Source of the DNA: Weissella halotolerans DSM 20190
GTDB lineage: Bacteria > Bacillota > Bacilli > Lactobacillales > Lactobacillaceae
Length of the DNA: 64,000 nucleotides
Direction: 5' to 3'
NCBI RefSeq assembly: GCF_000420365.1
Contig: NZ_ATUU01000002.1
Span: 1-64,000 of the forward strand
Shown here: piece after piece, positions 54,233 through 58,760 of the stretch
Position numbering within the stretch: the first letter of the stretch is position 1
Layout of the letters: every line of letters starts with the position of its first letter
The notes under the pieces: model-generated
What the model saw: only the letters and a program-made list of their open reading frames with translations
What the model was told of the DNA's origin: nothing
The model's database searches: none
Position numbers and translations under genes: made by a program

Positions 54233-54275
54233 AAAAAATATAGTTAACCCAGGTAAAAACCTAGATTAACTATAT
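54231..54275 (-). terminator. Terminator after the 54306 gene
   Basis: On the minus strand ATATAGTTAATCTAGGT pairs with ACCTGGGTTAACTATAT with minor mismatches, followed by eight T. It overlaps the -35 of the cadD promoter by two bases. Confidence 0.85.
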
Positions 54276-54305
54276 CAATAAGCAGGATTTAACGGGGCAA
54301 AGATC

Positions 54306-54587
54306 CTAGTTCTTTGCAACTTCTAAAATTGCATCCGCAATTTTTTCGTTGACACCAGCGAAAACCTGCTTGGTTTGTGCAACATCTAACTTCTTCAGTT
54401 CAGCCGGCTTATAAGCACTATAAATTGTTGACTGTAATTCATCATCACGGTAAATGTCAATGTCGATACCCAACCCGTCTTCATCTGGATAGGCAGATAA
54501 TTCATAGGTATCTTCATTGTAGACAACCTTCAAACCATCGTAGTCAACATTACCGTCCAACTCAGCTAATAAATCTTGTTTTGTCAT
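54306..54587 (-). CDS. Small acidic hypothetical protein
   Basis: A 93-residue soluble acidic protein without cysteine. The middle (LKVVYNEDTYELSAYPDEDG, then IDIDIYRDDE) looks like a beta-hairpin-rich fold, ending with a helix (VNEKIADAILEVAKN). The ATG at 54587 follows AAAAGGGG at 9 bp; the open frame extends to 54662 without a better site. Third gene of a minus-strand trio of small charged proteins. Family unknown to me. Confidence 0.75.
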   Translation of the reverse strand: MTKQDLLAELDGNVDYDGLKVVYNEDTYELSAYPDEDGLGIDIDIYRDDELQSTIYSAYKPAELKKLDVAQTKQVFAGVNEKIADAILEVAKN

Positions 54588-54603
54588 GACGATTAGCCCC
54601 TTT

Positions 54604-54750
54604 TTAGATTTTATCTTGGCGTTCTGCTTCACGTTGTTCCTTAGAAGCTTCTTCAAATTCACCTTGCTTCATTTTACGCTCATACTTACGCTTCTCGTCT
54701 TCAACTCCGCGTGCATCAGCTGCTTCAAATTCATGGCGCTTTTCAGTCAT
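54604..54750 (-). CDS. 48-residue highly charged hypothetical protein
   Basis: A short frame reading MTEKRHEFEAADARGVEDE at its start and ending SKEQREAERQDKI. More than half of its residues are charged (Glu, Lys, Arg, Asp), it should form one long helix, and it lacks hydrophobic clusters. GAGGGTTAAGCAAA precedes the ATG at 54750. It sits tightly between two similarly small genes (5 bp from the upstream stop, 16 bp to the downstream start), which supports it as a real gene. Resembles hydrophilin or stress-protein style sequences; function unknown. Confidence 0.7.
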   Translation of the reverse strand: MTEKRHEFEAADARGVEDEKRKYERKMKQGEFEEASKEQREAERQDKI

Positions 54751-54755
54751 TTTGC

Positions 54756-54959
54756 TTAACCCTCGTATTCTCTTTCTTCAGCATGCAAAGCCTTTTCTTC
54801 ATAACGATCTTCTTTGTGCTCTTCATGTTCAGCATGGATTTCTTGGCCCTTATGAGCCTCCTTTTCATGCTTGTAAAGCTTGTCTTCAGCTTCCTTTTCC
54901 TTACCTAGTGCCTTGGACTCGCGATTTTCTGCTAAACCATCACGTAATGTTGCCATCAT
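54756..54959 (-). CDS. 67-residue His/Glu/Lys-rich hypothetical protein
   Basis: A 67-residue, almost wholly helical, hydrophilic protein. Residues about 30-60 contain six His spaced among Glu and Lys (for example KHEKEAHKGQ and HAEHEEHKEDR). Such runs can bind divalent metals, and a CadD-type transporter gene lies 0.6 kb away, but this is only suggestive. GAAGGGAG precedes two adjacent ATGs (54959 or 54956). First gene of the trio. Unknown family. Confidence 0.75.
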   Translation of the reverse strand: MMATLRDGLAENRESKALGKEKEAEDKLYKHEKEAHKGQEIHAEHEEHKEDRYEEKALHAEEREYEG

Positions 54960-55126
54960 GGGTTCTCCCTTCAATCTTTATTTATACTGTTAGAATACCA
55001 CTAACCCCGTCAAAAACCAATACGCGCTCAGCCACCCGCCTATGCTTTTACTTTTACTAGTTAAGCCGTATACTAGGAACTGTATTCAAATCAGGCCCAT
55101 TTATTAAATAAAGAGAGGTATCCAAT

Positions 55127-55348
55127 ATGACCCTTGATCCAACACCAAAACAAGAAGCTAAAGCTGCTCGTATTCATGAAGACGCTAAGTTAGCCATCAG
55201 CAGCGGTCAAACTGTTTTGCACCTTGGTGCAGATTTTTTTGATGATGATGCCGATGTTCAAGCAGTTAATATGCTCTTAGCCCATCAATCTGATGATACC
55301 CGTTCCATTGCCCATCGCGATGGTCAGGTTGATATTGTTGAAATTTAA
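55127..55348 (+). CDS. Small acidic hypothetical protein
   Basis: A 73-residue soluble protein with a His-containing middle and an Asp-rich loop (LGADFFDDDADVQ). AGAGAGG lies 8 bp before the ATG. It is transcribed away from the minus-strand trio across a 167-bp gap that contains a possible plus-strand -10 TATACT at 55068-55073 with a poor -35. Family unknown. Confidence 0.7.
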   Translation: MTLDPTPKQEAKAARIHEDAKLAISSGQTVLHLGADFFDDDADVQAVNMLLAHQSDDTRSIAHRDGQVDIVEI

Positions 55349-55434: not shown

Positions 55435-55875
55435 ATGCTGACATATGAAACAACGCTGGCTGGCTTAGATGCTAGCATCCATACATTGGACCAACGCTTA
55501 CGTCGATACAAGCGACTCGCTTTGTTCAGCCAACTTTTGCAACTCGTTCTTTCAACGAGTATCCCCATCCTGATTGCCTTAGTTGGTAAAGATGACCGCT
55601 TATTGGTCTTAATTGCAGTTTTTGCAGCCCTGATTACCTTTGTACAAGCCTTTGGGGCCTTTTATAACTTAAACGAAAAGATTCAACGTGATACAACAGA
55701 TTTAATGGTTTTACAAAAAGAGCGCTTATTGTTTCGAAGTCACTCCGCCCCTTATGATCAAACAGAGGCTTCCGATGTTCAAACCTTAATCCACGCGATT
55801 ACGACCAAAACACAGTCTGTCTTACCTGATTTTATTCGTGAAGCACCCCAAAAGAAAGGAACTTCCCTCACATGA
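55435..55875 (+). CDS. DUF4231-like membrane protein
   Basis: A 146-residue protein with two transmembrane helices back to back (about 31-50, LFSQLLQLVLSTSIPILIAL, and 55-76) flanked by cytoplasmic helices; the layout resembles DUF4231/SLATT proteins, some of which belong to nucleotide-sensing defence systems. That link is weak here: no effector-nucleotide synthase gene is nearby. The ATG at 55435 is chosen (AAAGGAG 12 bp upstream); an ATG at 55423 touches the ribosome-binding site. Its stop overlaps the next gene by 4 bp. Confidence 0.75.
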   Translation: MLTYETTLAGLDASIHTLDQRLRRYKRLALFSQLLQLVLSTSIPILIALVGKDDRLLVLIAVFAALITFVQAFGAFYNLNEKIQRDTTDLMVLQKERLLFRSHSAPYDQTEASDVQTLIHAITTKTQSVLPDFIREAPQKKGTSLT

Positions 55876-56210
55876 AAGAAAACAACGTTTTAGTCGTCAC
55901 TACGGAAAATATCCCTGGTTACCAAATTGACCAGGTCTTAGGTGAAGTTTTTGGTCAAACCACTCGTTCACGAAATGTGATTTCCGATTTTGGCCAGTCA
56001 TTTAAAGCAATGGTTGGTGGTGAAATCAAAGGCTATACGAAGTTGCAAACAACCGCTCGTCAAGAGGCGCTAGCTCGCATGCAAAAAGAAGCAGCTAACC
56101 TTGGCGGCAATGCTGTAATCATGTTTCGATTTGATAGTAACACCTCTTCACTTGGTGATTCGGTGAATGCTTATGGTACAGCAGTCAAAATTAGTCCCCT
56201 TTCGGTCTAA
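55872..56210 (+). CDS. YbjQ family protein (UPF0145)
   Basis: A 112-residue protein of the YbjQ family, small proteins that form pentameric rings. Family pattern: VVTTENIPGYQIDQVLGEVFGQ at about 8-29, ARQEALARMQKEAANLGGNAVIMFRFD at about 68-94, and the YGTAVKI ending. It is sometimes described as heavy-metal-binding, but a function is not proven. Translationally coupled to the two-helix membrane protein (ATGA overlap). Confidence 0.88.
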   Translation: MKENNVLVVTTENIPGYQIDQVLGEVFGQTTRSRNVISDFGQSFKAMVGGEIKGYTKLQTTARQEALARMQKEAANLGGNAVIMFRFDSNTSSLGDSVNAYGTAVKISPLSV

Positions 56211-57384: not shown

Positions 57385-58152
57385 TTACAGCGTCCAATCA
57401 GCTAAACTGTCTACTGTATAAGTAGGTTGAATGGGCTCTTTGGCTACTGCTTTAGGGGTGGACAGGCCACTATAAACAAGTAGCGTATCAATATCAGCAT
57501 GGATACCAGCTAAAATATCTGTTTGATAATTATCACCAACCATAATCGTCTGTTTAGGATTAGCGTGAGCATACTGCATAGCAGCATCCATAATGAGTTT
57601 ACTTGGCTTACCAATCACTACCGGCTCAACCTGGGTTGCCGTTTGAATCGCCGCTGCAATTGCCCCAGTGCTTGGAATCATCCCCCGTTCACTAGGCAAA
57701 TTAGTGTCTGGATTAGTGACGATAAATTTAGCTCCTGCTCGAATAGCTAAGGTTGCCCGAGCTAAATCCTCATATACTAAGTTGCGATCTAACCCAACTA
57801 CGACTGCATCTGCTGGTTCCTGGGTGACCAAGTTGAAACCATGTTCTTGCAAGGCTGCTTGTAACCCATGCTCTCCAATCATTAATACCGACTGAACATT
57901 GGCTGCTTGCAAATAAGCTACGGTAGCCAGCGAACTCGTATAGACTTGGCCTGGCTCAGTCACAATGCCATGATGACGAGTTAAATTTTCAGCCACCTCT
58001 GCTGGCGTCTTTGTTGAATTATTCGTTACAAAAAGATGTTTAATCCCAGCAGCATTTAAGCGTTCAATAAATTGTTTGGCGGCAGGAATTCTTTCTTTAC
58101 CACGGTACATCGTACCATCAAGATCAATCAAATACTGTTGATAGTGCTTCAT
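57385..58152 (-). CDS. TIGR01457-type HAD hydrolase (NagD/YutF family)
   Basis: A 255-residue HAD subfamily IIA phosphatase. Nucleophile motif LIDLDGTMYRGKE is at about residues 8-20, motif II FVTNNSTKTP near 40, the C2A cap in the middle, and motif IV MVGDNYQTDILAG near 204. B. subtilis YutF belongs here. The physiological substrate is unknown (sugar phosphates or nucleotides are typical). It overlaps the yutD-like gene by 4 bp. Confidence 0.92.
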   Translation of the reverse strand: MKHYQQYLIDLDGTMYRGKERIPAAKQFIERLNAAGIKHLFVTNNSTKTPAEVAENLTRHHGIVTEPGQVYTSSLATVAYLQAANVQSVLMIGEHGLQAALQEHGFNLVTQEPADAVVVGLDRNLVYEDLARATLAIRAGAKFIVTNPDTNLPSERGMIPSTGAIAAAIQTATQVEPVVIGKPSKLIMDAAMQYAHANPKQTIMVGDNYQTDILAGIHADIDTLLVYSGLSTPKAVAKEPIQPTYTVDSLADWTL

Positions 58153-58760
58153 TTGGTCGTCTCCTTCGTCTCTTTGACCCGTTCCCGAACTTCGAAATGC
58201 CGCTGCTTACGTTTACCTTTGGCCTTCACTTCCACAGCTTGCCCCTTGCTACCTGGCTTATGTTGTCGTACCGGTCGCCGCTGTTCTCCAAGTTCTGCCT
58301 TCTCTTGATGGCCTTTCCCCTTACCACGGTGGCGCCGTCCTCGATGACGACGCTGATGGCCTTTAGCGGCCCCTTCTTCTTCAGCTATGGCATGAGGCGC
58401 CAAATTTTCTAAAACAAAATAAGGGGCTCCAAAATTCACTGTCTCATAGAGGTAATCATTTAAGGCCGTAATTTGTTGACTACGGGCTACGCCTGCTGTT
58501 CCAGCACGATAAAAGCCTCGCAAGCGCAACTGCTCTGAGGCAATATCCCCTAAAATAAAATCATACTTCTCTAGGAAATAACTAAAACGGGCAGCCAATT
58601 GTGGCTCCTTCAAAGCATCTCGATAATTTTCTACAATGCGATAAGCCCGGTCATTAATTACCAACCCTGTTGGGTCATCAGGGTCATGAACGATCGTCGT
58701 CGCTGCCTGACGTTCTAAAAACTGTGCGTCCGCTAACTCCTTCATTTTTTCACGATTCAT
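58149..58760 (-). CDS. yutD: YutD family protein with long basic tail
   Basis: A 203-residue protein. The YutD (DUF1027) domain covers about residues 20-130 (RIVENYRDALKEPQLAARFS, SYFLEKYDFILGDIA, DYLYETVNFGAPYFVLEN). The last about 65 residues are an Arg/Lys/Gly/His-rich disordered tail (RRHRGRRHRGKGKG), longer than in Bacillus YutD and likely RNA-binding. The function is unknown. It overlaps both neighbours by 4 bp. Confidence 0.88.
   Translation of the reverse strand: MNREKMKELADAQFLERQAATTIVHDPDDPTGLVINDRAYRIVENYRDALKEPQLAARFSYFLEKYDFILGDIASEQLRLRGFYRAGTAGVARSQQITALNDYLYETVNFGAPYFVLENLAPHAIAEEEGAAKGHQRRHRGRRHRGKGKGHQEKAELGEQRRPVRQHKPGSKGQAVEVKAKGKRKQRHFEVRERVKETKETTK

Follow-up and report, generated by a model that had tools for sequence, protein, structure and literature searches.

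Proteins of fewer than 70 amino acids are often overlooked by annotation. Those small charged proteins of bacteria that have been described include the CsbD-like and SASP-type stress and spore proteins, which are short, soluble and charged and have no enzyme fold. Charged single alpha-helices of the ER/K type occur as linkers. For the hydrophilins, the definition calls for a glycine content above 6% (PMC7448490). Here, we describe a locus of Weissella halotolerans DSM 20190 whose two conserved products, P1 and P2, have features of each of these and match none of their profiles above the cut-off. P1 and P2 are a selected, compact operon that the family libraries have missed. Its carriers live in sugary, salty and floral niches, and some are related to food.

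Layout of the Locus

The window is the whole stretch of DNA analysed, 64,000 nucleotides at the start of contig NZ_ATUU01000002.1. The features of the locus are as follows.

54756..54959, minus strand: P1, 67 aa (66 aa from the second ATG), charged; 17 orthologues, purifying selection
54604..54750, minus strand: P2, 48 aa, charged; 18 aligned orthologues in five genera including Floricoccus; dN/dS 0–0.14
54306..54587, minus strand: P3, 93 aa, acidic; third gene, lineage-specific
54237..54276, minus strand: intrinsic terminator, 18-bp stem and T tail, 30 nt past the P3 stop
54992..55000, minus strand: extended -10 element TGGTATTCT of the operon promoter, beginning 41 nt upstream of the P1 ATG

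The coordinates, strand, lengths, spacing and terminator of the three genes are as an earlier sequence-only reading gave them, with gaps of 5 nt between P1 and P2 and 16 nt between P2 and P3. P1 begins with two successive ATG codons, the second of which is the start in most orthologues. That reading also described the first two proteins as more than half charged and free of cysteine, with six histidines in P1, and this is borne out. Asp, Glu, Lys and Arg make up 51% of P1 and 58% of P2, P1 has its six histidines, and neither protein contains cysteine or proline. Ranked by charge among the 300 open reading frames of at least 40 aa in the window, P2 comes first and P1 second. P3, unlike these two, is only 32% charged and lies near the order/disorder boundary in charge-hydropathy terms. 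Therefore, the phrase "extremely charged", which the title of the earlier reading applied to all three proteins and its body text to the first two, fits two of the three.

Several other frames in the window were noted. A divergent 73-aa acidic frame (55127-55348, plus strand) faces the P1 promoter; it has no Pfam match and a high codon adaptation (0.61), and it could be another small expressed gene. At 55438-56210 (plus strand), a SLATT/DUF4231-like gene overlaps the start of a gene of the YbjQ "putative heavy-metal-binding" family, and at 58149-58760 (minus strand), a YutD-like protein carries a long basic tail rich in Lys, Arg, His and Gly beyond its domain. An 82% DNA match within the same genome (C1:427570) was set aside as chance since it contains no related frame.

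Distribution and Selection

Among 398 Lactobacillaceae genomes of 40 genera, a profile of P2 finds 17, which belong to four genera, and a profile of P1 finds the identical 17 plus a chance match (G284) that falls inside an apparent mevalonate-pathway gene. The carriers of both genes are four Weissella, two Convivina, nine Fructobacillus and two members of one further genus. Order-wide P2 matches in three genomes (G432, G427 and G051, E about 0.002) lie in larger frames and are not counted as relatives. When about 85,000 species genomes of bacteria and archaea were scanned at a sensitivity that reaches close relatives alone, two species of Floricoccus (Streptococcaceae) were added, both with P2 but no P1; their P2 has its own Shine–Dalgarno (SD) and a terminator-like sequence. 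The scan returned no other floral or bee genera of Lactobacillaceae. The uridine-kinase loci of a Fructobacillus (G028) and a member of the further genus (G066) contain no hidden P1 or P2. Searches of plasmid, phage and viral-contig collections, with a set of query proteins that varied by collection, found no relatives.

In close pairs, dN/dS is 0.09–0.22 for P1 and 0–0.14 for P2. The sequence-only reading had proposed that values near 1 should count against it, and since the range is 0–0.22, it is not refuted on that ground. P1 and P2 are genuine, selected and co-inherited small proteins. The trio that had been proposed as the unit does not hold together across carriers; the conserved unit is the pair P1-P2. 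On a tree of threonyl-tRNA synthetase (ThrRS), carriers are intermixed with non-carriers in the Weissella sub-group that has P3, so the operon has been lost or transferred more than once.

Operon Signals and Codon Adaptation

P1 precedes P2 in every locus; the two genes overlap by 1 nt at the closest and are 21 nt apart at the widest. Of 14 loci, 12 have an extended -10 element of the form TGnTAnnnT at -34 to -56 of P1, where shuffling predicts 2.3. The final P1 codons GAG GGG, which encode an invariant Glu-Gly, double as the SD of P2 in many species, and from this placement, we infer that the two genes are translationally coupled. The pair is a compact bicistron with one housekeeping-type promoter; the compact order, the SD within the end of P1 and the conserved extended -10 all support the co-expression that had been proposed. 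The flanking genes vary, with uridine kinase in Convivina, the further genus and several Fructobacillus and other genes elsewhere, and the pair has no fixed genomic partner gene across the carriers.

Codon adaptation in the window genome is 0.63 for P1, 0.72 for P2 and 0.59 for P3, against a median of 0.41 for the genes of the window, and resembles that of ribosomal proteins. It is raised for P1 and P2 in all four Weissella carriers, the others being scored with the codon table of the window genome. This suggests that P1 and P2 are highly expressed in the Weissella carriers. Abundance of that kind across genera was not confirmed in Fructobacillus, where P1 and P2 of one genome (G147) take the unexceptional ranks of 128 and 271 among 1059 genes.

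The Third Gene

P3 is a lineage-specific addition to the operon in one Weissella sub-group. Its orthologue in Weissella G026 is 37% identical and lies upstream of P1-P2, in an operon ordered as a 37-aa charged frame, P3, P1, P2 and a terminator. The 37-aa frame, MSDLKDLRDGAVERREEELNKSREAERKSEEKQHNAK (L061, G026:C1:746000-757500, minus strand), has the motif LRDGxxExRE in common with P1. Another Weissella, G020, which is close to G026 by ThrRS, has a decaying copy of the operon (L153, G020:C1:860001-880000, minus strand, at contig positions of about 864495-864900). There, a P3-like frame begins and soon meets a stop, P1 is missing, and P2 persists as a diverged 41-aa frame that is intact and has an SD. 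Since P3 adjoins P1-P2 in two different gene orders, a functional linkage within the sub-group is suggested. A Pfam match of P3 to DUF7348 is under the curated cut-off, and an AF2 model is alpha/beta at low confidence (pLDDT 54). A PDB match to AcrIF14 (E=0.13) is not significant, and partial matches in three genomes (G197, G321 and G326, E 0.006-0.008), in larger frames or with stops, were taken as chance.

Sequence and Predicted Structure of P1 and P2

P1 is conserved at its two ends, as (M)ATLRDGxxENRES at the N-terminus and HKxxRYxxxxxxxEKKxxEG at the C-terminus. P2 is conserved as HEFEAADAREVEDxKR...ERLxKQxxF...E.RE, with 14 positions invariant over five genera. The similarity of the window P2 is 68% to Convivina P2 and 62-66% to the P2 of its congeners. 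By the charge-hydropathy index, each of the 36 sequences of the two proteins comes out as disordered; cysteine is absent from them and proline nearly so. An AF2 model of P1 is a single long helix with no tertiary fold, at low confidence (pLDDT 64), and i/i+4 pairs of opposite charge are numerous. Neither a signal peptide nor a membrane segment is visible in either sequence. Neither of the two, nor P3, has a match above threshold in Pfam, NCBIfam, PHROG, PADLOC or PDB, with all alignment members of P1 and P2 run against both Pfam and NCBIfam, and full-text searches of open-access papers returned no description of the pair. Within the libraries and papers covered, the earlier statement that no such system had been described holds, and the pair is undescribed so far.

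Possible Functions of the Pair

Our tentative first choice, to which we give somewhat better than one chance in three, is that P1 and P2 are a soluble, disordered or single-helix pair that shields the cytoplasm from water stress or osmotic stress. As polyelectrolytes, net-acidic for the most part and either largely disordered or single-helix, they would work like hydrophilins and protect cytoplasmic proteins or hydrate the cytoplasm; P2 would provide a conserved helical contact surface, with P1 as its partner. Where the habitat is salty, sugary or floral, the pair would be advantageous; in other places it would be lost. The niches of Fructobacillus are fructose-rich (PMC9934391), Convivina lives in the bumblebee gut (cited in PMC9934391), and Floricoccus lives on plant surfaces (PMC10367601). 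The Weissella carriers are near W. viridescens, in the group named after W. halotolerans, a species that grows in 12% NaCl (PMC10758620). These habitats, together with the physicochemical traits, point to a protective role as a best guess, and the decay of the operon in G020 and its absence from other relatives fit a conditional, dispensable one. Against this, the habitat link is confounded by phylogeny, the species-wide scan brought up no further floral or bee genus of Lactobacillaceae, glycine is too low for a hydrophilin, codon adaptation in Fructobacillus is unexceptional, and the 14 invariant positions mean that P2 is conserved beyond the needs of a purely physical protectant.

That strict conservation makes it nearly as likely that P2 is a regulator or specific accessory subunit whose short helix docks on a conserved partner of the ribosome, RNA polymerase, protease or chaperone type, with P1 as its co-factor, although at somewhat under one chance in three this too is doubtful. 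The window P2 is as close to that of Convivina as to those of its congeners, its dN/dS is as low as 0-0.14, and Floricoccus retains it without P1, all of which suit a specific target. The known subunits, however, share no homology with P1 or P2, no partner gene accompanies them, and the patchy loss among close relatives argues against a core machine. Less likely, at about one chance in five, is that P1-P2 represents a class of micro-protein pairs of lactic acid bacteria that is so far undescribed, in which the conserved P2 helix would bind one specific conserved target, such as the translation or transcription machinery, and tune it in osmotic stress, while P3 would be a third component confined to its lineage. 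If P2 binds a partner, a new small regulator would be revealed, and if the pair is a stress protectant, its two short proteins would be easy to make and could serve the drying tolerance of starter cultures.

Another reading is that the chains, rich in His, Asp and Glu, buffer metals or protons and have CadD as their partner; a metal-buffering module beside a CadD-type transporter was one of the options of the sequence-only reading. In its favour are the six histidines of the window P1, the HxxH that occurs in 10 of 17 P1 sequences, and the CadD-family gene downstream in the window. It is now improbable, since the histidines are not conserved (two to seven per P1, with no invariant column, and no cysteine) and no linkage of CadD to the pair was seen outside the window. 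Judged by its position and the terminator, the CadD-family gene forms a transcription unit of its own, with 150 nt between it and P3; none was found beside P1-P2 in the other carriers, and the CadD relatives of W. viridescens are elsewhere in the genome. A toxin–antitoxin or other selfish small-gene pair, which tiny, tightly linked genes of patchy distribution could bring to mind, is more improbable still: such a pair should be obligate and mobile, but P2 stands alone in Floricoccus, the plasmid and phage searches made gave no match, PADLOC has none either, the genes are single copy, and they have no hydrophobic or catalytic part. Finally, the skewed composition and the silence of the annotation libraries might have indicated spurious frames or a low-complexity artefact; we leave that almost no room since the orthologues, the dN/dS well below 1 and the conserved promoter and SD speak against it, and codon-level conservation has already refuted it.

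Comparison with Described Small Proteins

P1 and P2 resemble the hydrophilins and LEA-like proteins of bacteria and yeast in being small, very hydrophilic, rich in charge, poor in cysteine and predicted to be disordered or helical. Their hydrophilicity index (negative Kyte–Doolittle mean) is 1.5-2.2 in every sequence, against the hydrophilin value of >1, so the term hydrophilin-like, as used in the earlier reading, stands to that extent. Formal membership does not, since glycine is 3.0-6.0% in P1 and 0-4.2% in P2. They also differ in having no LEA or WHy Pfam match, in being a paired bicistron and in the strong sequence conservation of P2. The curated Pfam and NCBIfam profiles of LEA, CsbD and other named small stress families do not recognise them. 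With the CsbD-like and SASP-type proteins, they share shortness, solubility, charge and the lack of an enzyme fold, whereas no profile match is above the cut-off, the best one to SASP-K having E=0.098 in one of 18 members. The single helix modelled for P1 and the many i/i+4 charge pairs are as in ER/K helices, although the model is of low confidence; P1 and P2 are also short and stand-alone rather than linkers.
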